This document shows, piece after piece, positions 1-10,861 of a DNA stretch of 24,311 nucleotides. Within the stretch, counting starts at the first letter, position 1. Every line of letters begins with the position of its first letter. The notes beneath the pieces are model-generated. The model was not told the DNA's origin. It worked only from the letters and a program-made list of their open reading frames with translations, and ran no database searches. The translations under genes and the position numbers were made by a program. The DNA is from a virus. The stretch is taken from the IMG/VR virus record IMGVR_UViG_3300021197_001069, positions 1 to 24,311 of that record, one strand, 5' to 3'.

Positions 1-1116
1 TTTATCTACGTCGTAGAAATCGGCAGCGCTGCCCTCACGCACATCAAACTTACGAATGATCTCCTCGTCCATGATCTCAAATACGCGGCCTCTGAATTTT
101 TCATCCTGAAGTTTGTCTGTCCAGTGTGCGCTTTGGAACTTCTCCTCTGTCCCATCGTTATGTACTAACGAATACCACGCACCAGCCTGACGCAGACTAT
201 CTGAACCCTTGATTGCTTCCAACCAGCTCTCTGCATCCTGAATGCCAACCTCGTCGGTCCCCCAGAGAATCTTGAAAGCGCAATTGCGACCCTGTGTGCC
301 GAAACGAGACTTCTCAAGTTTGACTTTCACTTCGGATCCAATTCGGAAACCGCTCTCGTCCTCAATGAAGGCAGACTTTGCCTTTCGGCCCGTTAACCAC
401 ACGCGGAGAGAATATACGTAATGCATGGCTTTTCCGCCTGGGGTGATGTAAGGCGTCGTCATTGCGACGATGCGGGCGTTTGGTCCCTGAGGGATGTTTG
501 TCTTTAGCTGATTCAGAACCAAGAAGGCCGATTTTGTATTTGCAATCGGAATTGTCAACTTAGACATTCCCTTTGAGAGAATGCGTGCCTTCATTGCCAT
601 GGTGGACTGAGGGTTGAAGTCTCCTTCCACATCAGACACAGTAGGAGTCAGAGCCAACGAGTCCCAGATAAACAGGGTACGTTCTGTACCCGAGGCCAGG
701 ACGGCCTCTACAGTCTCTAGAACATGTTCCACAGATTGTGCCTGGACATAGATCAGGTTTTCTAAATCACATCCAGTTCGTTCTAGGAATCCTGGGTCAA
801 TCGCTGACTCTGAGTCCATATACACCACATTCATGCCCATCTTCTGGGCATTAGCGGCGCACTGTGCAGCCATGAAAGATTTGCCGGTCGATTCCAGACC
901 TGCAATCTCTGTGAACTTACCTACGGGGATGCCGGCAAGTTGGCCGCGGCACACTATAGAATCTAACCACCGGGAACCGGTGGGGATCCATTCCGTTACT
1001 TCTGTAGGATTTGCTTCCTTCAGGTTGTGGGCGACATTAACGCCCGAAGTTTTATTAATTAATGAGCGCAACCCATCCACTGATAGTTTGCCTGCTTTTG
1101 ATTTACTTTTTGCCAT
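1..1116 (-). CDS. uvsX: UvsX/RecA-like recombinase (C-terminus cut by window edge)
   Basis: Strand-exchange recombinase that would load on single-stranded DNA and drive recombination-dependent replication and repair with the gp32-like protein upstream. From the ATG at 1116, 372 codons are open to the window edge, close to the usual UvsX length of about 390, so little is missing. Visible motifs are a Walker A loop GLESTGKS at residues 73-80, the RecA-type acidic segment MDSES with Glu103, a Walker B strand LFIWDS near 148-153, and a DNA-binding loop 2 region near 200-230 after LVLNQ. The P-loop is more like bacterial RecA than T4 UvsX. GGAGAG lies upstream of the start, inside the preceding small gene, whose last 14 bases overlap this start. 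Function is secure; UvsX rather than a generic RecA is inferred from the T4-like context. Confidence 0.93.
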   Translation of the reverse strand, partial: MAKSKSKAGKLSVDGLRSLINKTSGVNVAHNLKEANPTEVTEWIPTGSRWLDSIVCRGQLAGIPVGKFTEIAGLESTGKSFMAAQCAANAQKMGMNVVYMDSESAIDPGFLERTGCDLENLIYVQAQSVEHVLETVEAVLASGTERTLFIWDSLALTPTVSDVEGDFNPQSTMAMKARILSKGMSKLTIPIANTKSAFLVLNQLKTNIPQGPNARIVAMTTPYITPGGKAMHYVYSLRVWLTGRKAKSAFIEDESGFRIGSEVKVKLEKSRFGTQGRNCAFKILWGTDEVGIQDAESWLEAIKGSDSLRQAGAWYSLVHNDGTEEKFQSAHWTDKLQDEKFRGRVFEIMDEEIIRKFDVREGSAADFYDVDK

Positions 1117-1258
1117 CGAATCTCTCTCCGTATCTCGTATATATTTCGTCCCTCACATCATTGTGAAGGAGTGCCACGTGGTCACTAATTTCGTCTATCT
1201 GGCGCTGCTGGTTCGTCAAGAACCATATGATTCCAGCAAAACCCAGCAGCGTCCACAT
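1103..1258 (-). CDS. 51-residue membrane-anchored small protein
   Basis: Small open frame not recognised by family. The protein begins MWTLLGFAGIIWFLT, one short hydrophobic segment at residues 2-15, followed by a charged, probably helical tail (QQRQIDEISDHVALLHNDV) and a basic C-terminus. This looks like an N-terminally anchored protein with a soluble coil. The ATG follows a GGGAGAG ribosome site that lies in the last codons of the preceding small gene, and the stop lies 14 bases inside uvsX, so the three genes are tightly coupled. Together with the two small genes upstream it forms a set of envelope-directed proteins. A lysis or spanin-like role is possible, but nothing in the sequence proves it. 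Confidence 0.6.
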   Translation of the reverse strand: MWTLLGFAGIIWFLTNQQRQIDEISDHVALLHNDVRDEIYTRYGERFDGKK

Positions 1259-1262
1259 AGAC

Positions 1263-1400
1263 CTACTCTCCCGCCTGGGAGAGCAGACTCTCTACTTTGT
1301 CAAGACGCTTACGCATCAGAAACGTGTGGGCAAAAGTCCAACCAAGGACACCTGCCAAGAAGGCGCTATACATTGTTTCGAATGTAAACAGTGCCTCCAT
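1263..1400 (-). CDS. 45-residue single-membrane-span protein
   Basis: Tiny protein with one clear hydrophobic span at about residues 10-28 (MYSAFLAGVLGWTFAHTFL), followed by a basic stretch MRKRLDK and an amphipathic end. Positive charges after the span suggest that the C-terminus is cytoplasmic. The ATG shares one base with the TGA stop of the lipoprotein gene upstream (TGATG), so translation is probably coupled. The stop is a TAG just before the next small gene. Size and shape would suit a small holin, antiholin or membrane modulator, but no family is recognised. Confidence 0.62.
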   Translation of the reverse strand: MEALFTFETMYSAFLAGVLGWTFAHTFLMRKRLDKVESLLSQAGE

Positions 1401-1561
1401 CACGCACCTGCCGAGTCGTCGTCGTCAGCAGCGGAATCATCATCATCCGCGGCAGAGTCGTCGTCGTCCGACGCTGGGCAGCCACTAAAAGTAACAGCTG
1501 CGAAGCCCAGGATTAGGGCCAGAAACGCCATAAGCGTAAATTTATTAGTTCGTGAAATCAT
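1400..1561 (-). CDS. Small lipoprotein with Asp-rich repeat
   Basis: A 53-residue protein with a bacterial lipoprotein signal: basic start MISRTNK, hydrophobic core from about residue 9 to 25, and a lipobox-like TFSGC with acceptor Cys28. The mature part is only about 26 residues, dominated by three copies of DDDDSAA/DDDDSAG (residues 32-52). After lipidation it would be a very acidic tail on a membrane face. A clear AGAAAGGAAA ribosome site precedes the ATG. It is followed by two tiny membrane proteins with overlapping or abutting frames. It could be an outer-membrane lysis protein (o-spanin type), a superinfection factor or an envelope modifier. It lacks the proline-rich look of classical Rz1. 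From memory, similar Asp4-Ser-Ala linkers occur in deltaproteobacterial and myxococcal lipoproteins. Confidence 0.7.
   Translation of the reverse strand: MISRTNKFTLMAFLALILGFAAVTFSGCPASDDDDSAADDDDSAADDDDSAGA
1406..1468 (-). repeat. Three 21-bp coding repeats (Asp4-Ser-Ala2)
   Basis: Three in-frame units of seven codons encode DDDDSAA, DDDDSAA and DDDDSAG. The outer units use GAC for aspartate and the middle unit uses GAT throughout. The protein repeat is therefore better conserved than the DNA repeat, which points to selection on the acidic peptide rather than a recent slippage copy. Confidence 0.85.
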
Positions 1562-1573
1562 TATATTTCCTTT

Positions 1574-1798
1574 CTAGATTACGAATTCTTGTTCGGTGAC
1601 GATCAAACAACCTTCGTTGATCAATCGCTCATAGTGTGTATAATACCCTAGTTGACTCACCGTGTCAACCACTATTTTTCTCATTGTCTCAGATTTACCG
1701 GTGATGACACGAACAGGTAGATCACTATTAAACACAAATGTGTGAATTTGTTGAACAATCCCCTCGTGCCTCTCACCGTGTAAATCTAAGGTTTTCAT
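1574..1798 (-). CDS. Stand-alone Smr-domain protein
   Basis: A 74-residue protein that is almost wholly an Smr (small MutS-related) domain. It starts MKTLDLHG, the family's LDLHG motif at residues 4-8, and continues with VRVITGKS at about 29-36, matching the second conserved turn (usually H/T-G-K/x-G), then MRKIVVDTVSQLG and a closing strand CLIVTE. Smr domains act as nucleases on DNA or RNA, sometimes on stalled-ribosome mRNA. The usual TGxG is TGKS here, so activity is uncertain. The start overlaps the TAA of the upstream gene by one base (TAATG), so the two are probably translated together. The family call is good; the role in infection is not known. Confidence 0.82.
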   Translation of the reverse strand: MKTLDLHGERHEGIVQQIHTFVFNSDLPVRVITGKSETMRKIVVDTVSQLGYYTHYERLINEGCLIVTEQEFVI

Positions 1799-2325
1799 TA
1801 GTTCAGTGCAAGGGTGCCATTCTTTGTTGCGACCGAAACATCAAAACCGCTGACAAACGATCCTGCGTCAAATCCCTGAAACCGAAACAGCGTAGAATTC
1901 TCTGCTTCGTACAGGTCACCAGCGCGGACGCGCACCTCAGTCGAGATATCGCAGCGGCCGCGCTTGTAATCATACTGCGTGGTTGAATACTCGATTGAGT
2001 ACTCACCATCATAGATGGTCTCCTGCAGCTTCTCCGTGAGATATTCCCCGAACCAACCCTCATAGTCATAGTCCTCTAGAAGGCCGTTATCGCGCATCTC
2101 GTTAAGGATATCACAACCCGGTTCGGCTGAACCGTACGTCCCATAAACGGGAACGCCAGTGGCCAGCAGCCCTCCGAGCATGCTAGTGGTGCCAGTCTCA
2201 GCAACACTCTCCTGAACATGGCTCTCGTTGATGTGCCACACTTCGCAGCCCTCATTATAATTCAACCATACGAAGTTGTCGTCTTCGACGCCCAACTCTC
2301 GCAACTTATTACTAAAATCACTCAT
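1798..2325 (-). CDS. Conserved-looking phage protein of unknown function
   Basis: A 175-residue acidic, soluble protein with no signal peptide or membrane span. It is rich in Tyr, Glu and Gly, with a distinctive middle part (EGWFGEYLTEKLQ, then IEYSTTQYDYKRGRCDIST) that looks beta-stranded, and it ends FDVSVATKNGTLALN. I do not recognise a family. The ATG follows an AAGGGAG site. Upstream is a 7-bp hairpin that is part of the 33-bp repeat found again before the H1-like gene. Its stop overlaps the Smr gene start. It sits among replication and DNA-binding genes, so an early or middle role is likely, but no activity can be assigned. Confidence 0.78.
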   Translation of the reverse strand: MSDFSNKLRELGVEDDNFVWLNYNEGCEVWHINESHVQESVAETGTTSMLGGLLATGVPVYGTYGSAEPGCDILNEMRDNGLLEDYDYEGWFGEYLTEKLQETIYDGEYSIEYSTTQYDYKRGRCDISTEVRVRAGDLYEAENSTLFRFQGFDAGSFVSGFDVSVATKNGTLALN

Positions 2326-2352
2326 TTTAAACTCCCTTGTTGTGTGATAATT

Positions 2353-2385
2353 TGAGGCCCCTGTAACCCCGGGCCTCCCTGCGGA
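2353..2385 (-). repeat. 33-bp repeat with hairpin, copy 1
   Basis: Exact 33-bp direct copy of 2605-2637. It holds a 7-bp stem (2354-2360 with 2371-2377, GAGGCCC/GGGCCTC) around a 10-base loop. On the transcribed strand it lies 28 bases before the next gene's ATG, after the H1-like gene. No U-run follows the stem, so a classical terminator is unlikely. It may be an RNA-processing or stability hairpin, or a recombination scar. Confidence 0.8.
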
Positions 2386-2394
2386 TGGTAGAGT

Positions 2395-2586
2395 CTACCC
2401 TGCGTTCTTGGTCTCTTGGACCTCAACGCGAAGCTCTTGAGCGAGCGTCTTTACTTCCTGCATAGCCTTGCGTACACGAGTTCCAGCGGCATTGTTTCCA
2501 GTGCCAAAGAACTTATCATGATCATCGCGAGTCTCTTCAAGAAGCGCAATCAGCGTCTCAAGTCGGTTCGTTGTAGTAGTAGTCAT
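2395..2586 (-). CDS. Histone H1-like (Hc1-type) DNA-binding protein
   Basis: A 63-residue helical, Lys/Arg/Glu-rich protein. Its C-terminal half (FFGTGNNAAGTRVRKAMQEV then KTLAQELRVEVQETKN) matches the conserved core of small bacterial histone H1-like proteins (Hc1 family; best known from Chlamydia, with short relatives in Bacteroidota), where G-N-x-A-A-G-T-R-x-R-K is diagnostic. These proteins bind DNA and compact nucleoids. In a phage it could coat or organise replicating DNA, or condense the host nucleoid. It follows the gp32-like SSB, has an AAGGAAGAG site before the ATG, and is bracketed by two copies of a 33-bp repeat, unlike its neighbours. Family call rests on recognised sequence pattern, not on a search. 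Confidence 0.82.
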   Translation of the reverse strand: MTTTTTNRLETLIALLEETRDDHDKFFGTGNNAAGTRVRKAMQEVKTLAQELRVEVQETKNAG

Positions 2587-2604
2587 AACTCTTCCTTTCT
2601 TGTA

Positions 2605-2637
2605 TGAGGCCCCTGTAACCCCGGGCCTCCCTGCGGA
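2605..2637 (-). repeat. 33-bp repeat with hairpin, copy 2
   Basis: Exact copy of 2353-2385, between the SSB stop and the H1-like start. The same 7-bp stem is formed by 2606-2612 and 2623-2629. This copy also allows an alternative 5-bp hairpin CCTCC/GGAGG at 2626-2639. The transcript continues into AAGGAAGAG and the ATG without a U-run, so it reads as a leader or processing hairpin rather than a strong terminator. Confidence 0.8.
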
Positions 2638-2646
2638 GGGGATGTT

Positions 2647-3417
2647 TTAGAGAGCGCCAAGCTCTTGGAATGCGGCATCGACGGCATTGACCTCACCGTT
2701 GCTCTTGTTGCCATATTTCGTAGTCTCGCTGCTAACTGATTCAGCATCTTCGATCTGCGAGTTAATAAAGTTATCTAGCATCGATCTAACGTCAGCAGTT
2801 GACTTGCGATCAAACAGGCCGGCGAACTCAGGAATGCTATCAAGCAATTCTGCGCACTTTTCTGGTGTCAGATCATCACAGAGACTAGACGATCGTCGTC
2901 GGGGGACGAGCTTAGTCTGCGGAAATGACGCTCCCGGCGGCTTGCCGTAAGTGAGAGTCAGATCAGTGCCTGCCTCTGTGTCAGTAATGTCACCATACTC
3001 CGGATTGAGAACAAGGGAAAGAAGATTCTCATATGCGGTCTTTCCATAACCCCAGATGCGAACTCCAGACTCCTCTTGGCCGCGGACCATAACGGGAGAG
3101 AAAAAGCGCTGACGAACGAAGAGAGACTTAGCAGTCTTCTTGCTATGATCGTCGTTGTTATCTACACCCTCACGCCACAGCTGTGAAGCAAAATCACAAA
3201 CGGGACACTCTTCACCAAAGTTACGCTTCGGACAAAGGAATCCGCCCTTTTCAACATTATAATGGAACCACATCTCCTTGAAGGGGTCACCATCCGGAGT
3301 CGGGACAATACGAATGTCCTGATCTCCATCTTCGGGCCGCCAAAAAGCGCTGTCCCTATTACCCTCACCTCGTAAGGCTGCGAGCTTCTCTCGCATTTTA
3401 TCTAAATTAATACCCAT
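2647..3417 (-). CDS. gp32: gp32-like single-stranded DNA-binding protein
   Basis: Single-strand DNA-binding protein of the T4 gp32 type, which coats single strands at forks and helps UvsX loading. The N-terminus has a basic patch KMREKLAALRGEGN (residues 7-20), placed like the LAST-type cooperativity region. DIRIVPTPDG begins the core. Zinc ligands can be read as His52, Cys62, Cys71 and Cys74 (FHYNVEKGGFLCP...ECPVCD), matching the His-Cys3 pattern of gp32. Length is 256 against about 300 in T4. The C-terminal tail (VNAVDAAFQELGAL) is acidic only in part, shorter than T4's protein-recruiting tail. AAAGGAGAT precedes the ATG. It lies between the tubulin-like and H1-like genes. Confidence 0.88.
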   Translation of the reverse strand: MGINLDKMREKLAALRGEGNRDSAFWRPEDGDQDIRIVPTPDGDPFKEMWFHYNVEKGGFLCPKRNFGEECPVCDFASQLWREGVDNNDDHSKKTAKSLFVRQRFFSPVMVRGQEESGVRIWGYGKTAYENLLSLVLNPEYGDITDTEAGTDLTLTYGKPPGASFPQTKLVPRRRSSSLCDDLTPEKCAELLDSIPEFAGLFDRKSTADVRSMLDNFINSQIEDAESVSSETTKYGNKSNGEVNAVDAAFQELGAL

Positions 3418-3445
3418 TTTTATCTCCTTTAGGGTTAAAGTACGA

Positions 3446-4312
3446 TCAGCTAATCTCCTGATCGCCTAGTAGTTCATCTATGTATTGTACCACAGAAGAG
3501 TATCGAATGCAATAGCAATATTTTTGTTCATAATTTGTTCTAAACACACCATACGATACATTTGCTCCCGTGTCAAGGCGAGACTTAACAAAATTGTTAA
3601 TTTTTCTGAAGAGCGTACCATCGTTCTTCAGGTCGTCCTCTCCAATACCATAGTAATATACCACATCCTTCGTGTGTGTCAAGGGGTAAAACCATTTTTC
3701 TTTGTATGCGGTCTCATCATCCCCTTCCATCGTGACGGCCCCGATCGTGCATATGCGCGAAATCTCTGATGGAATTATGAAATTGCCGATCACTGGTTCG
3801 GAGTGCTTAAATACGTTTGTCATGTGAACAATATTGACAATCGCTTGATTTAGCGTGTCATAATATCCCATGATCGACATATCTCCGATGCTTCGCTCAA
3901 TGTATGCGTTGTTAACAATAATAAACTGTTTAAGCAATCCAGATCGTGCATATTCTTGAAGAATGGAACTGACAATTCGTTCTCGCTTCTTCTGTGTCTC
4001 CGACATTATTGTCAAGTCACCCTCAATGTAGAGGACAGATACTCTATTGCTCTTAAGTTGTTCCAGAAGCCTCAATGCGCCCCCAGAGACTTTACCGGCG
4101 CCGGCGATAACAACTGTAACATCCTCATCCCTGAACTTAAGCTTCTTCTTGAGATTAGGAAATGTTGCGTCGTATTCTTCATGGCTGCTTTTCGCCTTGA
4201 TAGTTATATCAGCTTCGTTACTAGCGTCAATACTATACGTTTTGTACTGCGGAAACTTAGAGAAAGCTTTCGCGATATTACATCCCGCTTTTCCAAGTCC
4301 AACGATAATCAT
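3446..4312 (-). CDS. Divergent tubulin/FtsZ-superfamily protein (putative)
   Basis: A 288-residue protein whose motif order follows the FtsZ GTPase domain. It opens directly with a strand and glycine turn, IIVGLGKAGCNIA (residues 2-14; FtsZ GVGGAGNNA). Next come IDASN at 28-32 (FtsZ NTDAQ), a glycine-rich GAGKVSGG at 71-78 in the place of the tubulin signature GGGTGTG, and a strand VSVLYIEGD. A helix KKRERIVSSILQEY and strand QFIIVNNAYIE at 108-139 resemble FtsZ's KKR...DTLIVIPN. The T7-loop region near 178-190 (FIIPSEISRICTIG) lacks the usual Asp pair, so hydrolysis may be weak. The ATG shares ATGA with the stop of the upstream NTPase gene. Possible roles are a filament positioning phage DNA, or an FtsZ decoy. 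Fold assignment is by eye. Confidence 0.62.
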   Translation of the reverse strand: MIIVGLGKAGCNIAKAFSKFPQYKTYSIDASNEADITIKAKSSHEEYDATFPNLKKKLKFRDEDVTVVIAGAGKVSGGALRLLEQLKSNRVSVLYIEGDLTIMSETQKKRERIVSSILQEYARSGLLKQFIIVNNAYIERSIGDMSIMGYYDTLNQAIVNIVHMTNVFKHSEPVIGNFIIPSEISRICTIGAVTMEGDDETAYKEKWFYPLTHTKDVVYYYGIGEDDLKNDGTLFRKINNFVKSRLDTGANVSYGVFRTNYEQKYCYCIRYSSVVQYIDELLGDQEIS

Positions 4313-4626
4313 TCGTCATCTACCCATTCTAAAATAATGCCCTGCTCGTAGCCGCCGCGGAGAATGCGTTTCGAAGTAGCTTGGGCCATAACCGCACTAT
4401 CGCGAATGCCCAGTTTGTCGCAGAGGAAGTGAAAGATCTCCATCACATCAGCTGCCTCCTCTGCGGAAGGGTCCTCTGTGAATTCTTGGATTTCTTCGTG
4501 GAGCTTTTTAAAAGCATACGAAATAATCTCGTTCTCGTCTGCTTTACGTGAGGCGAAGGTCTTGCCGGCATCGGCAATGACGCTTGGGATACGATCCCTC
4601 ACTAGTTTTTGGTAGATCTTCTTCAC
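4309..4626 (-). CDS. All-alpha NTP pyrophosphohydrolase (MazG/PRA-PH-like)
   Basis: A 105-residue nucleoside triphosphate pyrophosphohydrolase. It starts with the signature KLVRDRIPSVI (residues 7-17), followed by the metal-binding helix motif KLHEEIQEF (about 41-49) and EEAADVMEI (about 56-64), the E-x-x-E...E-x-x-D pattern of the all-alpha NTP-PPase superfamily. Such phage enzymes hydrolyse dNTPs or related nucleotides, cleaning the nucleotide pool or altering host signalling. The start is GTG, overlapping the TGA of the polymerase gene by four bases (GTGA), so it is probably translated by coupling. The exact substrate cannot be told. Confidence 0.85.
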   Translation of the reverse strand: MKKIYQKLVRDRIPSVIADAGKTFASRKADENEIISYAFKKLHEEIQEFTEDPSAEEAADVMEIFHFLCDKLGIRDSAVMAQATSKRILRGGYEQGIILEWVDDE

Positions 4627-5810
4627 AGCTTTAATTCCTTCATCGCTCCAAGGTTCTTGCCAGCGGCGACGTTAACCTTAAATCTATCATAGCGTGTCTG
4701 TGAGAAGATGTCAAGCATTTCCATAATGCGTGCTTTGTCCTCATTAGCAAGGTCGATGTATACAGCATCATGAATAAGAAACGCAACAGTGCTCTTCATC
4801 CCCTCCAAAAGTTTAAAAACCTTATAAGCTTGCTCATGTACCATATCAATTGTGGTGCTCTGAACGATGTAGTTTAGAGCGTGGTGGTCGTCCACTTTCT
4901 CTATTATTCTACCATAATCTGTCTTGATTTTGTAGCCATTCCAGTACTTATTTCGCACAAAATCTTTATTGTACATGTCCTCTAAATCCTTGTTTTTATT
5001 GGAGGAATACAGCCAAGCAAATGTCTTGACCTTGGCCTCTTCCCGAGTAATGTGGCCCCCAAACACATTCTGCACGTTCCAATCGTGAATGTCATTCTCG
5101 GGTTGCTCTTGTTCGTTAAGTGCTAGCAGCACTCGCAACTCTGCAGCATTGAAGTCTAGCTCAAGCAGCCAATCATTGTTTGGTTTAACACATCCGCGGA
5201 ACTCTTTACCCATCGTAAGAATCGGGAATGACTTTGGCATCGTTGAGAGTCGGCCAGTAATCGTGCCCCATGCGTTATAGTCACATACATGTCGTGTGGT
5301 GCGGAGAGTTCTGTGAAAATTTTGACCCTTTACAGACGATAAGAGATGCTTGATCGGACCTATGTCGATGTTTAGAGACCTAGACTGAATATCGTCCAGC
5401 ATCCTAACCAGATTAAATACCTGCTGATAGTTCTCTGGTCTCTCATACTTGTTTAGAACATGTTCAGTGACTTTATTCTTCGCATTCATATACTGATATA
5501 AGAAGTATTCTGGCAAGACATCGTAAAAACAATTCTCGTTCAAGTTTACACGAGCAGTGCTGAAGGCCCTGAGACACGATCTGAGCGTCTTCTTGATCAT
5601 TTCCCACTCATCCTTCATGTCTTCCGGGCAAACGTCTGTAATCGTCGCTCCGTGGGCGTAGATGCGGGCTATTTCGATCGGCGCCTCGCCCAGATACTCT
5701 GAGTACTCCCAAGTGCCACCCTCTGAAGGTAATTCGGTGGATGGATTGATTTGATTGTTAGCAAAATAGCCAACGCAGTCGCGCTTGGCGTCGAGAACCT
5801 GAAAAAGCAA
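4623..5810 (-). CDS. Family A DNA polymerase (polymerase domain only)
   Basis: A 395-residue template-dependent DNA polymerase of the Pol I family. Motif A is LLELDFNAAELRVLLAL with catalytic Asp219 and Glu224. Motif B is REEAKVKTFAWLYS with Arg256, Lys260, Phe264 and Tyr268 at Pol I spacing. A Gln helix LNYIVQST has Asn313 and Gln317. Motif C is FLIHDAVYID with His347 and Asp348. GRLST at 186-190 and EFRGC at 203-207 match the conserved thumb/palm segments. The 180 residues before this are too short for a Pol I 3'-5' exonuclease plus full thumb and show no exonuclease motifs, so proofreading would need another gene. The TTG start is forced: an in-frame TAG stands three codons upstream and the next Met is residue 65. 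AGGGAGG lies four bases before it. This replaces T4's family B gp43. Confidence 0.9.
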   Translation of the reverse strand: MLFQVLDAKRDCVGYFANNQINPSTELPSEGGTWEYSEYLGEAPIEIARIYAHGATITDVCPEDMKDEWEMIKKTLRSCLRAFSTARVNLNENCFYDVLPEYFLYQYMNAKNKVTEHVLNKYERPENYQQVFNLVRMLDDIQSRSLNIDIGPIKHLLSSVKGQNFHRTLRTTRHVCDYNAWGTITGRLSTMPKSFPILTMGKEFRGCVKPNNDWLLELDFNAAELRVLLALNEQEQPENDIHDWNVQNVFGGHITREEAKVKTFAWLYSSNKNKDLEDMYNKDFVRNKYWNGYKIKTDYGRIIEKVDDHHALNYIVQSTTIDMVHEQAYKVFKLLEGMKSTVAFLIHDAVYIDLANEDKARIMEMLDIFSQTRYDRFKVNVAAGKNLGAMKELKL

Positions 5811-5814
5811 GTTG

Positions 5815-5821
5815 CCTCCCT
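5815..5821 (-). promoter_or_regulatory. Ribosome binding site deciding the TTG start of the polymerase
   Basis: AGGGAGG on the coding strand, overlapping the TAG stop of the upstream 435-residue gene and four bases before TTG at 5810. It is the only Shine-Dalgarno match near the beginning of the polymerase frame, which cannot extend further because of that TAG. Confidence 0.7.
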
Positions 5822-7127
5822 AATATATTTGTTGGGCGATTGAACCCACTGTAGCTATATTACCAGTTCTGACACGGTTGTCAAGGCTTTTTAGCACATC
5901 GCTGTCGAGCGACAGATAATCAGGTTGATAGATGTAGTCGCGGTAGATGGTGTTTATGTATTGTGCGACGTTTTGTACACCTGTGAGATTCTCATCAGGG
6001 TGGACGGCATAAATGCTGGCCAGTTCCCTTTTGAGCTTTGTAACGTTCCGAACAGGATCTTTGGTTTCTTTAGAACGAAGGGAAAGATACAGATCAACGA
6101 GCAACTTATCAGTCAGCGTGATCTCTACATTGGCCGGGAGCTGCTGGCGATCCCTATTGAAGACCTTGAATGTGCCGCACTTAGGGGATACAACTCTTTC
6201 TTGGTAGAGAGGATTGTTCTCGGAGAACGTCTTATACGCGCTAACAGTAATCTGTTTAAGGTCACTGATGTCCGTTAGGCACGTTTTATCATAATACACA
6301 TCAAAGAAATTATCTTCTGTTACAAAACTATTAAGAGATTGAATATAAAACCGAGAGAAATACTTTTTTATAGCATCGGAGAATAAGTCGGCAGTTAGAA
6401 CCCAAGGAGTATTTTTGTTAACGATCAGTCCAAACTTCTTGGCTGCCTTTATATAAAACTCAAAGTTGGGATCACTGATCCAATTGTCGTACTTATATTC
6501 ATCATTCTGTGCTGGGCCTAGATCAATCGATACGGACAGGCCCGAAATGAAAGAGTTACAAGCATCAGTTAACAGATAACTTGTCTTTGTAACTGGGATG
6601 AACGCTGCGACCTCGTTTAAATAATTGAACCACGAACTAACAAAGGTTCTAAAATTGGTTATCTTGTTGTTCTCGTCAAGTGTTAGGCCGGCAAGATAAG
6701 AGTTATAGAGTTGTTGAGTGTACTCGCCATAGATTCTCGTTGGGTCGTTGTAGGCCTGATAGGCTTTCATGTTGTATATCTTATCGTTTGCATTATCTGT
6801 CCTTAAAACCCCAAGAATTGTTGCACTTCTCATGTGCGCTGCGAATTCCTCAAATGCCTCAACAACAAAATTAAGGGCAAACCGGTTCTGTACTGCAACG
6901 GTTCGGAGAGGAACCAGATTAGAAAAGGCCGGAATGATGGTGTTTTGAACTCTATCCACTCTGCCATAATACTGCTTTTCATACCACGTGTCAAGGGGAA
7001 CCTTCACATCAGACGGATATACCGCCTCCTTATACATGAGTCTCTGAAAATATAGCGCAAAGGAGGACAATCCATTCTTGCCCGATGGGTTTTGTAGATC
7101 CTGTAGAGTGTAGTTAAATGTCGTCAT
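5820..7127 (-). CDS. Presumed virion/baseplate protein, unknown family
   Basis: A 435-residue soluble protein rich in Tyr, Asn and Phe, with no signal peptide, membrane span or catalytic motif that I recognise. Composition and length suit a virion structural protein. It is the last gene of the baseplate group, and its start shares one base with the stop of the 1244-residue hub-like gene (TAATG), so the two are made together. A wedge, hub or tail-fibre attachment role is inferred from position only. Its TAG stop is in the same frame as the polymerase that follows. Confidence 0.75.
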   Translation of the reverse strand: MTTFNYTLQDLQNPSGKNGLSSFALYFQRLMYKEAVYPSDVKVPLDTWYEKQYYGRVDRVQNTIIPAFSNLVPLRTVAVQNRFALNFVVEAFEEFAAHMRSATILGVLRTDNANDKIYNMKAYQAYNDPTRIYGEYTQQLYNSYLAGLTLDENNKITNFRTFVSSWFNYLNEVAAFIPVTKTSYLLTDACNSFISGLSVSIDLGPAQNDEYKYDNWISDPNFEFYIKAAKKFGLIVNKNTPWVLTADLFSDAIKKYFSRFYIQSLNSFVTEDNFFDVYYDKTCLTDISDLKQITVSAYKTFSENNPLYQERVVSPKCGTFKVFNRDRQQLPANVEITLTDKLLVDLYLSLRSKETKDPVRNVTKLKRELASIYAVHPDENLTGVQNVAQYINTIYRDYIYQPDYLSLDSDVLKSLDNRVRTGNIATVGSIAQQIY

Positions 7128-10100
7128 TAGAACTTATCTCTCCCCTGTGTTGATCTGGACGCTGCTTTGGCCCCGCTTTGGGCTCGGGCTCCGAGGTCCT
7201 CTGCCGTAGAGGGATCGGGCCCACCATAGACTTCCGGTGGTGGATCCTCTGGATTATCCGGCTCGTTAATAGTGATAGTACTTGGTTGTAGATCTTGCTG
7301 TTTGAAGCTAACCCCCTCGTGGAGTGCGCGGATTGAAACATCGAAGCTGTTAGGAGTAATGGTCGATTTTACTTTGGTCACCAAATAATATCCATGCAGA
7401 CCCAGGTAGTCTAAATATGTCTGATCAGCATTTAACAAGCTTGGGTTAATATAAATATACATTCCGTTCTTGTATAAGTTATTGCCAACCAGATTTATGT
7501 TTGCTGAATACAGTTCTCTCAATTGCTCTGGTCCTAGGGCGCCCACCTTTTGGATTCGAGACTCACGAAGATATGGTTGATCTTCTCTCTGGAAGTTTAT
7601 CTGCTTAACAAGGCCGCAAGCAGATCCCAGGTAATGATGGTAAATTCCTTTTCTCCTATCACTGTCGGGATTTTTACCAGTTAAACCATGTGGCTTCGAG
7701 TCCGTCGAATATAATATAAGTCCGAGTTCAACGAAAGAGGGATCCGGCGCCGTATAAATCCCGCGTACGCCAGCACGGAGTTGTTGTATGGTGTATGACT
7801 TGCCTGGCGAGTACCGGCTGCGACCTGATTGATTGGTATTTACTGTAAGGGGGCGGGCATCAAAACGTTGTTCAAACTTAAATCCGTCACCAAAACATTT
7901 CGAGGACAAAGCATTACTGATAAGGTCTTTGCATATATCTTTAATAAAATACAATAGATAATAGTTTGAGCGTTCGTTCTTAATAACGTTGTTTTTAAAC
8001 CACACTTGAAAGGTATCTAACGAAATTGGTATATCTCCAATGTTCATTGTTCTGAAGATACCATTTAGTTGATTGAAGCTTTCTGGACTTTCTGTGGCGA
8101 AGATTTCAACCTTGCTAATGTCTCTTAGCGTATAGCCGCAGTTTAAAAGCTTCTCTAGGTTCTCAATTTTAAATGCCTGCAGGGGGTCGATCATTTCGAC
8201 ATCGGACACAAAGAACTTAAAGTTCAAACCATCCTGCCCCAACTCTTCGGGGTAGTTTTCCTTTATCTGTTCTAAAATAGAGTCAAACAGATCGCCTAAG
8301 TAGAAGTATGGAATATTAACCCTGTTGGCTCTCTCAAGCTCTTTGAATCTCTTGAACTCGGCATCTGCAACGATTTTATTAATGGCGTTGCCAGAGCCGG
8401 CCTTGTTCGTGTTGAGGGCATCAATGGTCGCCGTGCTAATAGAGGCCACTGTATCAATCTCTAGGCTGGTGCCAAGCTTTCTCTTAACTCGGGCAGCGCG
8501 CTGTTCTGGGGTTAGGTCAGCGTAACTTGCTTGAGACAACTCGTAAGGGTTAACACTCAGGCTATGTATTTTTGTTCCTGACACCGTGCTTGTGTCAGAG
8601 TTGTTAGTGAAGAACAGTTTCTTCAAAAGTTTTTTATACTTAACATTTCTATCAATTGCACGGAGTTGTTTTATTTCTTGCTGTAATTCTTCGACTTTAG
8701 CTTGGCGCGCTTGTTTTCGGGCCCTCGTCGCGGTGTCGGGAGTTTCTTCATTCAGCTTCTTAATCTTGCTTTCAACATCCTCGATATCTTTGGCGAGTAA
8801 TTTGCCCGATTCATCAAGGATGTTAGAGGTTTTACCACTGAGGAGACCAGCTAGGCTAGCTCTGTAATTAATTGACAATTCCAAACTACCGTTCTGGTTG
8901 AAGTTAATCTTGTGCTGCGTCATTTGCAGGTACAGGGTTGTCTTCGATGTCTTAATAGCTTCGTGCAAGGCCCCAGCCTTACCTGAATCGTTCATCAGAT
9001 CTTCCAGCGCCGCAAGGGGAGGAGTTGACCAGCCGGCCGTAACTTGTACTCTGAAATCTTTTCCGTCGTAATCTCTGTGGAGCAGTTCGCTCTTCATATC
9101 ATCCGAGCATGTCTCGCCTGATGGAGATGCGTCTGTGGTTGACTCTCCATTCCTTCGCTTCCTGAGCGACGGGGAGTTGATGATTAAATCTAGGAAGTTT
9201 GGTTCTGACGCGCCGGCCTGGCGGGCACCATTAAAGAAGTCATTAACTGACTGAAAGTACATGACCAATTCTGCCGTAATATTATTGTCGACTTCCGCTG
9301 GCTGAACACCATCCAGTGACCAGCTAAAGGATTTTATGCCCGCGCCCGGGAGGCGACCTCCCGAAGGACTTAGCATATCTCGGATTTGGTCCTGTGTTAG
9401 AAAGTTTGGAATCTTAAGATCTCTAACCACTGGTTTTTTTGTATTGGGATCGATCGCAATCTTGCCATTCTGGTCATACTCAAGCCTAGATATTTTTATA
9501 TATGGTGTGAGCAGTCCGTAAATATCCGGGCAAATGTCCAAAAACTCTTTAGTGCCAGTCCCTCCGGATTCAATTCTGTTCAACACTGTTCCGGGGTCGC
9601 CGTTACTATTTAATCGGATGAGGTTCTTATATTGCGCAACGTGGCGTGGATCAGACTTTCGCTTATCCACCAGCTTTGATATATTTTCATAAAGAAAGCA
9701 CTGAAAATCATACGGCTTTAAGTTTGGGACTGGGATTGGTATGCCCTTGTTAACATCCCTATCTCCGATGTCAGATGCAGCAGCTTGAGTCAGGGGTGAG
9801 TCGGTCGCGTCTTCGGAAGCAGAAACACCAAACCACTGATAGATATAGTTCAATTCCCTGCCAGTCCTCCTCACATCGTTGCCAGTATATCTTGGCGGCA
9901 AGGTGGCATCTATATCGGGACGCAGAATCTCAAAGAGAGCCAAAACCTGAACGTTGACATCATACCCAGGCTGGGTGAAGAAGGCCTGGGTTGCCGAAAA
10001 GCGTGCCCTAAAGTCAGCGGGGCTGAGATCATAGTTCACGGCGTTGCCCGGTGCATGATCAGCTATGGATTTGCTCAGGAGGGCCGGGTCTGTTGGGTTG

Positions 10101-10861
10101 GCTATAGTATCATTGATCAACTGCATGCCGGCATTATAGGATCTGCCGGCGGCCGTGGATGCTTCGAGGAGCTTGGGTTTTAGTCTTGATTGGAATTCAT
10201 ATAGCTCCTTAACTGCGTCAATCAGGACGGGCGAAATTGGGATCAGCGGGGCCGCTGAAGTCACGGGACCAGAGGGCGAAGCTTGCAAGGCGGACTGGAT
10301 ATATCGTCTTCGGAAATACTCCAACACCGCGGGACTAAAGAGTCCCGTGGGAAGTTTCCCGGAAGACGCGCCTTGTGTAAAGGCTGGCTGGCTCGGGCCC
10401 GGTTCGTCGTTGGGGATGTCGTTTACAAATCCAGGCTTGAGTGACTCGTTAAACAAGTTACCCAGAGCCACTCGGACGACTTGGTCCGATGTCGTTAAGC
10501 CAGACGCTCTATTCGCAGCATACTGCTGAGGGTTTATGCCTGTTACAAGGCCGATCTTCCGGCCGGCGTTCATGTATAGCGGAAGCTTGTTATCTGACAG
10601 AACAGCAAGCGCCTCGGTAGCATTTGTAACACCTGTTGGGCTGTTCTCTTGACCCTCTTGGCGAGGGCCGATGCCTTTGGATTTTGTTGAGGCTTCGATT
10701 TCTTTTTGATATTCCGCATAGTTGTCTACAAATATATCCAGCGCAGCTGGGTCAAAGAAATTCGCATTATAAAACTCACTTACAAGCTGGAGTGCCGCGG
10801 CTTCATAGGTCTTATAATCGACACCGTCGTACTTAAAGACATCTGTTGTACTCTGTCCCAT
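7127..10861 (-). CDS. Large hub-like baseplate protein (1244 residues)
   Basis: The largest gene in the window. The N-terminal half is Pro/Ser/Ala-rich with several apparent domains. Residues about 680-745 hold a highly charged coiled coil (ESKIKKLNEE...VEELQQEIKQLRAI). The C-terminal part ends in a beta-rich domain, YIYINPSLL...HGYYLVTKVKSTIT (about 1140-1175), then a Pro-rich tail. The segment naming a position, then GYYLVT..V, then FDVSIRALHEG resembles the end of hub proteins of the gp27/gpD kind, so a central baseplate or hub role is suggested, not proved. It sits between the gp53-like wedge gene and another presumed structural gene, 11 bases from the former. No lysozyme or peptidase motif was seen, so any puncturing enzyme is elsewhere. 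Confidence 0.65.
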   Translation of the reverse strand: MGQSTTDVFKYDGVDYKTYEAAALQLVSEFYNANFFDPAALDIFVDNYAEYQKEIEASTKSKGIGPRQEGQENSPTGVTNATEALAVLSDNKLPLYMNAGRKIGLVTGINPQQYAANRASGLTTSDQVVRVALGNLFNESLKPGFVNDIPNDEPGPSQPAFTQGASSGKLPTGLFSPAVLEYFRRRYIQSALQASPSGPVTSAAPLIPISPVLIDAVKELYEFQSRLKPKLLEASTAAGRSYNAGMQLINDTIANPTDPALLSKSIADHAPGNAVNYDLSPADFRARFSATQAFFTQPGYDVNVQVLALFEILRPDIDATLPPRYTGNDVRRTGRELNYIYQWFGVSASEDATDSPLTQAAASDIGDRDVNKGIPIPVPNLKPYDFQCFLYENISKLVDKRKSDPRHVAQYKNLIRLNSNGDPGTVLNRIESGGTGTKEFLDICPDIYGLLTPYIKISRLEYDQNGKIAIDPNTKKPVVRDLKIPNFLTQDQIRDMLSPSGGRLPGAGIKSFSWSLDGVQPAEVDNNITAELVMYFQSVNDFFNGARQAGASEPNFLDLIINSPSLRKRRNGESTTDASPSGETCSDDMKSELLHRDYDGKDFRVQVTAGWSTPPLAALEDLMNDSGKAGALHEAIKTSKTTLYLQMTQHKINFNQNGSLELSINYRASLAGLLSGKTSNILDESGKLLAKDIEDVESKIKKLNEETPDTATRARKQARQAKVEELQQEIKQLRAIDRNVKYKKLLKKLFFTNNSDTSTVSGTKIHSLSVNPYELSQASYADLTPEQRAARVKRKLGTSLEIDTVASISTATIDALNTNKAGSGNAINKIVADAEFKRFKELERANRVNIPYFYLGDLFDSILEQIKENYPEELGQDGLNFKFFVSDVEMIDPLQAFKIENLEKLLNCGYTLRDISKVEIFATESPESFNQLNGIFRTMNIGDIPISLDTFQVWFKNNVIKNERSNYYLLYFIKDICKDLISNALSSKCFGDGFKFEQRFDARPLTVNTNQSGRSRYSPGKSYTIQQLRAGVRGIYTAPDPSFVELGLILYSTDSKPHGLTGKNPDSDRRKGIYHHYLGSACGLVKQINFQREDQPYLRESRIQKVGALGPEQLRELYSANINLVGNNLYKNGMYIYINPSLLNADQTYLDYLGLHGYYLVTKVKSTITPNSFDVSIRALHEGVSFKQQDLQPSTITINEPDNPEDPPPEVYGGPDPSTAEDLGARAQSGAKAASRSTQGRDKF

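Follow-up and report, generated by a model that had tools for sequence, protein, structure and literature searches.

A predicted tubulin-fold protein encoded beside SSB in the replication module of an uncultured T4-like phage clade

The window analysed here, 24,311 nucleotides of viral DNA (positions 1 to 24,311 of the IMG/VR record IMGVR_UViG_3300021197_001069), encodes a 288-residue protein, hereafter tub, which is a member of the tubulin/FtsZ superfamily at the level of its predicted fold. Our comparisons are best read as placing tub in a new family of phage tubulins, separate from both PhuZ and TubZ, an earlier description being possible beyond the open-access literature. We propose, with the case for and against about evenly balanced, that tub is a core part of the replication module in a clade of uncultured T4-like phages and acts there as a static scaffold that binds guanine nucleotide. 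The genes of the window that bear on this proposal, with the basis of each assignment, are as follows.

1 to 1116, minus strand: RecA/UvsX-like recombinase, truncated at the edge of the window (named for its likeness to the recombinase found after SSB in Flavobacterium phage immuto and in relatives)
2395 to 2586, minus strand: histone H1-like Hc1 protein (PF07432, E 9.4e-21)
2647 to 3417, minus strand: gp32-type single-strand DNA-binding protein (SSB), the downstream neighbour of tub (PF08804, E 7.9e-15)
3446 to 4312, minus strand: tubulin/FtsZ-fold protein (tub), 288 aa (open reading frame, AlphaFold2 model, Foldseek and VIA matches)
4309 to 4626, minus strand: NTP-pyrophosphohydrolase (MazG)-like protein (motif reading only, EExxxE...EExxD)
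4623 to 5810, minus strand: family A DNA polymerase (PF00476, E 1.5e-12)
7127 to 10861 and 5820 to 7127, minus strand: two large genes, of 1244 and 435 aa, between the baseplate genes and the polymerase

The reading frame of tub is intact and complete on the minus strand, exactly at the coordinates given for it in the earlier note, and the plus strand has four stops over the same interval. The pyrophosphohydrolase-like gene ends at the ATG of tub, with an overlap of 4 nt between stop and start. Relatives with about 35 to 90% identity were found in more than 590 IMG/VR viral contigs, and dN/dS between tub and its close relatives is 0.04-0.08, some of the dS values being near saturation; tub is under strong purifying selection. 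This retention in viral contigs, together with the low dN/dS, shows that tub is a real gene. A tblastn search of 50,697 phage records found no carrier, and a divergent member of the family yielded no more than short chance matches there. Furthermore, no relative of tub turned up in two scans of bacterial and archaeal genomes, which hence provide no link to a host.

The gene lies in a co-directional block that runs, from right to left, through the major head protein, the tail and baseplate genes, the two long genes and the polymerase, and continues with the pyrophosphohydrolase-like gene, tub, SSB, Hc1, two small genes and the RecA-like gene. The replication-module setting described earlier thus holds, with the polymerase and SSB identified by profile and the pyrophosphohydrolase-like protein, for which there was no profile above cut-off, recognised from its motif. 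Neither Pfam nor PHROGs assigned a function to the two large genes, which are present at this place in most loci. The polymerase has 395 aa only, without a long exonuclease part, and lies beside T4-like structural genes; the polymerase of T4 itself belongs to family B. A small Smr-domain-like protein is encoded near SSB (1574-1798, minus strand; PF01713, E 0.02, below cut-off) and has homologues in 21 loci. The Hc1 gene is flanked by a 36-nt G+C-rich element (2353-2388 and 2605-2640, 97% identity) in which a short hairpin is possible, and this element may be a repeated terminator or the border of a cassette.

That the phage is T4-like, as had been claimed, is confirmed by its sheath (phrog_23, E 1.2e-70), tube, baseplate (T4_baseplate, PF12322, E 4.6e-17) and gp23-type major head protein (phrog_138, E 6.7e-71). 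The nearest named head proteins include those of immuto, Microcystis phage Mel-JY01 and Rhodothermus phage RM378, the last being the reference of the Far-T4 group (PMC4360716); the text of that paper makes no mention of tubulin or FtsZ. The largest contigs of the tub clade are 148-194 kb. Homologues of Hc1 occur in 54 loci, and the Hc1 profile matched only Bacteroides among 14 control genomes. Together with the host of immuto, a Flavobacterium, this suggests a host among the Bacteroidota, as a lead and not as proof.

Evidence for the fold comes from structure prediction. The final AlphaFold2 model of tub, built from a 72-sequence family alignment, has a pLDDT of 91.1 and a pTM of 0.90, and the match to FtsZ was already present in an earlier, mediocre model from 18 close sequences (pLDDT 70.5). 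In a Foldseek search of the PDB, a check that the earlier note had proposed, the best 50 matches were all FtsZ or TubZ (top E 9.6e-13). VIA-align gave Z scores of 24.8 for CetZ (rmsd 3.0, 259 residues aligned), 24.0 for CetZ2, 22.9 for TubZ, 22.8 for FtsZ and 21.7 for beta-tubulin, with 259-275 residues aligned over residues 1-284; the absence of PhuZ structures among the VIA-align matches listed is uninformative. The model thus has the two-domain tubulin fold, including the C-terminal domain, with the helix at residues 150-169 as the central H7, and bears out the assignment as tubulin/FtsZ-like, at Z above 21 and not as an ordinary Rossmann or other fold. By DSSP, when the order of elements is compared by reading, the model has a coil at the place of FtsZ H8 and a strand at that of H9, and the region between S2 and S4 is shortened relative to FtsZ.

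Sequence profiles failed to recognise this kinship. Searches of Pfam, PHROGs, NCBIfam, PADLOC and the PDB sequences gave nothing convincing for tub. PF00091 matched below its curated cut-off (best E 0.019) in 4 of 26 relatives, and there was no match above cut-off in four large contigs; no different family scored above its own cut-off either, in keeping with the tubulin assignment. When the tub family was aligned to an FtsZ profile with hhalign, P was 0.031, and the known phage tubulin PhuZ gave P 0.016 against the same profile; thus, sequence is a poor judge of tubulin kinship here. A forced global hhalign alignment was uninformative. The only recurrent profile matches were weak ones to TrkA_N, at residues 2-33 of the window protein, with a best E of 1.5e-5 in one relative. 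These are what would speak for a mistaken tubulin call on an ordinary Rossmann protein of the NAD type, a reading whose probability we consider negligible: a Rossmann dehydrogenase is ruled out by the tubulin match over the whole chain, since the best 50 structure matches all belong to the tubulin superfamily and take in the C-terminal domain.

In the open-access literature, phage tubulins form two groups, PhuZ of the nucleus-forming jumbo phages and TubZ of plasmid-like phages. CetZ (3zid and 4b45) is structurally the closest to tub (259-264 residues aligned), but shares 15-16% identity and is cellular and archaeal, not phage-borne, and tub has neither T7 acids nor H8. TubZ, the partition tubulin of plasmids and of phage c-st, shares the fold and is likewise found on mobile elements; however, it works with TubR and a centromere, whereas the neighbours of tub are the polymerase, the MazG-like protein and SSB, and tub has lost the T7 acids. 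TubR was not among the identified neighbours of tub, and a centromere-like direct-repeat array was not seen within positions 1-7200. PhuZ (phiKZ gp39) is, like tub, a phage-encoded tubulin fold with a deviant T4 loop (GGASGS in PhuZ), but it keeps a DLMDI stretch at T7, and its phages carry chimallin and a multi-subunit RNA polymerase. Neither of these was detected in six contigs of the tub clade, of 102-194 kb, in a search in which the phiKZ control matched, a distant chimallin could escape and the contigs may be incomplete; thus, a PhuZ-type nucleus is not indicated. In hhalign, tub and phiKZ gp39 aligned over 29 columns only, covering the glycine loop and the ID strand (P 0.12), and no full-length sequence relation between the two was detected. 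The view that a tubulin in this position would differ from PhuZ and TubZ is upheld.

FtsZ has the same fold as tub, with Z scores of up to 22.8 and a Foldseek E of 9.6e-13, but its GGGTGTG and NVDFADV motifs and helix H8 are all missing from tub, and there is no sequence-profile match. The top viral structure match, in BFVD, was A0A6J5RW92 of an uncultured Caudovirales phage, annotated as 'FtsZ Cell division GTPase' (E 9.6e-13, TM 0.77 on the query); this protein is longer, with 452 aa, and 15% identical to tub. Divergent members of the superfamily have a precedent in the FtsZ-like families of Makarova and Koonin (PMC2875224), but these are bacterial and archaeal, are linked to membrane remodelling, and were found by a GGGTG(S/T)G motif that is absent from tub. 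Since tub fits none of the sequence-defined families FtsZ, TubZ, PhuZ and CetZ, and has neither the T7 acids nor the signature of the canonical members, it is placed in the superfamily by fold only.

The residues that would contact the nucleotide were located by the model, the alignment and column counts in 72 relatives.

4283 to 4300, minus strand: T1 glycine loop GLGKAG, residues 5-10
4226 to 4228, minus strand: T2-loop Asp29, at the probable place of the FtsZ NTD Asp, judged by element order and alignment
4082 to 4102, minus strand: T4 phosphate-binding loop GAGKVSG, residues 71-77; GxGx[IV][ST]G in the family
3941 to 3958, minus strand: family signature QEYARS, residues 119-124, at the end of H5
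3908 to 3910, minus strand: T6 Asn135, guanine-contact position, aligned with the Asn of the FtsZ IPND motif
3848 to 3850, minus strand: H7 Asn155, guanine-contact position of tubulin H7, within the FtsZ AANDV stretch by alignment
3755 to 3805, minus strand: degenerate T7 loop, residues 170-186 (model DSSP and column counts)

Invariant in all 72 relatives are G5, L6, G7, G10, Y23, D29, Y95, Q119, R123, S124, N135, N155, H163 and G191. The signature GGGTG(S/T)G of canonical tubulin/FtsZ GTPases is replaced in the family by GxGx[IV][ST]G, with G71 kept in 70, G73 in 69, S or T at 76 in 69 and G77 in 67 of the 72. Most of the landmarks of the earlier note were borne out, namely the GLGKAG glycine turn, IDASN (with D29), the GAGKVSGG loop as a changed tubulin signature and the FIIVNN strand (with N135); the KKR helix is not conserved, position 110 being Q in 53 of 72. 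Its remark that there is no clear Asp pair at the T7 loop also proved right: of the 72 relatives, none has an acid at column 177, 24 have one at column 180 and 46 at column 183, and the catalytic pair is absent. An acid stands at residue 172 in 52 of 72, and all 72 have a basic residue at 186. From the invariant contact positions, we infer that tub binds guanine nucleotide. In Staphylococcus aureus FtsZ, mutations of D46, R143, N208, D210 and D213 stop or weaken assembly and hydrolysis, assembly being abolished by D210N and D213N (PMC8936486), and T7 mutants of PhuZ form non-dynamic filaments (PMC7950403). Thus, the usual hydrolysis of GTP between subunits is unlikely in tub, which is probably no dynamic GTPase.

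The linkage of tub to SSB was followed across the relatives. Among 112 loci found through tub, many of them on short contigs, SSB is present in about 105, the polymerase in 92 and a MazG-like homologue in 84. The order polymerase, MazG-like gene, tub, SSB recurs down to about 35-40% identity, the MazG-like gene being optional. Because these loci had been found through tub itself, the search was repeated through SSB; in this retrieval, 118 loci had 900 nt or more ahead of SSB, and in all 118 tub lies directly upstream. Some of these loci come from contigs met before or met twice, so that fewer independent phages are represented. Many of the tub/SSB pairs overlap or sit within 100 nt of each other.

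Flavobacterium phage immuto has no tub between polymerase and SSB, and a search that started from its SSB retrieved 80 sister-group loci. In these, the gap between polymerase and SSB is usually without tub and is filled by another conserved protein, about 150 aa long and with a NTILVHRKKETNTLYTINALN motif (L215:1346-1801; gap of L221-L300), which showed no relation when compared with the tub family. The whole records of eight sister phages, including two isolates annotated as complete, gave no match to tub, and three members of the tub clade searched alongside did match. In a tree of SSB, the loci with and without tub separate, with a single locus lacking tub (L040) inside the tub group; the contig of this locus begins within the tub gene. 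Thus, tub is a clade-wide gene that was either acquired or lost here when the two groups parted, the tree being without an outgroup. In Microcystis phage Mel-JY01, an S-adenosylmethionine-lyase-like protein is encoded directly before SSB (L214:7598-8884; PF23780, E 4.4e-10).

In the proposed mechanism, tub would bind GTP or GDP through the kept T1, T2, T6 and H7 positions and the modified T4 loop, and would not hydrolyse GTP by the usual T7 mechanism between subunits; for this reason, it would form small oligomers, or polymers that are static or turn over slowly. Such assemblies may scaffold or anchor, within the cell, the phage replication complex of SSB, polymerase and recombinase, which would make tub a cousin of PhuZ in role, without the dynamics of PhuZ. 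We count the recurrent gene order, the unbroken linkage to SSB, the dN/dS and the split in the SSB tree for a core replication role, and the static filaments of the PhuZ T7 mutants as a precedent for the scaffold. Against the scaffold, the model is without H8, which is part of the protofilament contact in relatives, and tub may form no polymer at all, since the D210N and D213N changes abolish the assembly of FtsZ. Against the core role, the sister phages replicate without tub, and the adjacency of tub and SSB may mirror shared timing of expression instead of a shared complex. The stronger form of the proposal we hold only tentatively, a little short of even: that tub is an obligate structural part of the replication machine, a static GTP-bound scaffold or compartment organiser working with SSB, and a third, independent kind of phage tubulin in which hydrolysis has been lost or replaced, in T4-like phages that give no sign of a phage nucleus.

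The main rival to the scaffold is an accessory of the replisome that binds guanine nucleotide and does not polymerise, the tubulin fold being reused as a monomer or dimer, for example to load SSB or polymerase or to sense nucleotide as their partner. The loss of the T7 acids and of H8, the strict linkage to SSB, and the invariant H163 and QEYARS motif, which occurs only in this family and may be a partner site, all agree with it; however, both tubulin domains are kept at full length, beyond the need of a simple nucleotide sensor, and we consider this accessory rather unlikely. Lower still stands the idea of an inhibitor of host FtsZ, which the earlier note raised in the form of a capper or decoy. 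In principle, a protofilament could be capped by a tubulin fold that lacks a catalytic loop, and phage inhibitors of FtsZ exist, namely lambda Kil (PMC3961180), T7 Gp0.4 (PMC13423816) and T5.008 (PMC10714956), but these are a different kind of gene and are not known to be relatives of tubulin. Furthermore, with T7 and H8 lost, one of the two faces that form the protofilament is largely missing, and a gene universal in its clade, strongly conserved and locked to SSB better fits a core role at the replication site; the capper or decoy is thus unsupported and improbable. We see an equally slim chance that tub forms a filament that is dynamic and hydrolyses GTP through a rearranged active site, such as the basic residue 186 with acids at 172 or 183. 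The conservation of these positions and the arginine-finger-like behaviour of R143 in FtsZ (PMC8936486) favour such a filament, but there is no invariant acid in the T7 region, and the FtsZ arginine sits in H5, not in T7.

A cytoskeleton-type protein has here taken up a constant place beside SSB in the replication module of a large group of uncultured T4-like phages, with a role that is testable. A family that sequence profiles do not see and that is nevertheless so widespread and so tightly bound to SSB suggests that cytoskeleton-type proteins take part in the replication of abundant uncultured phages. Furthermore, tub offers a concrete test of whether the tubulin fold can serve without GTP hydrolysis driven by T7.
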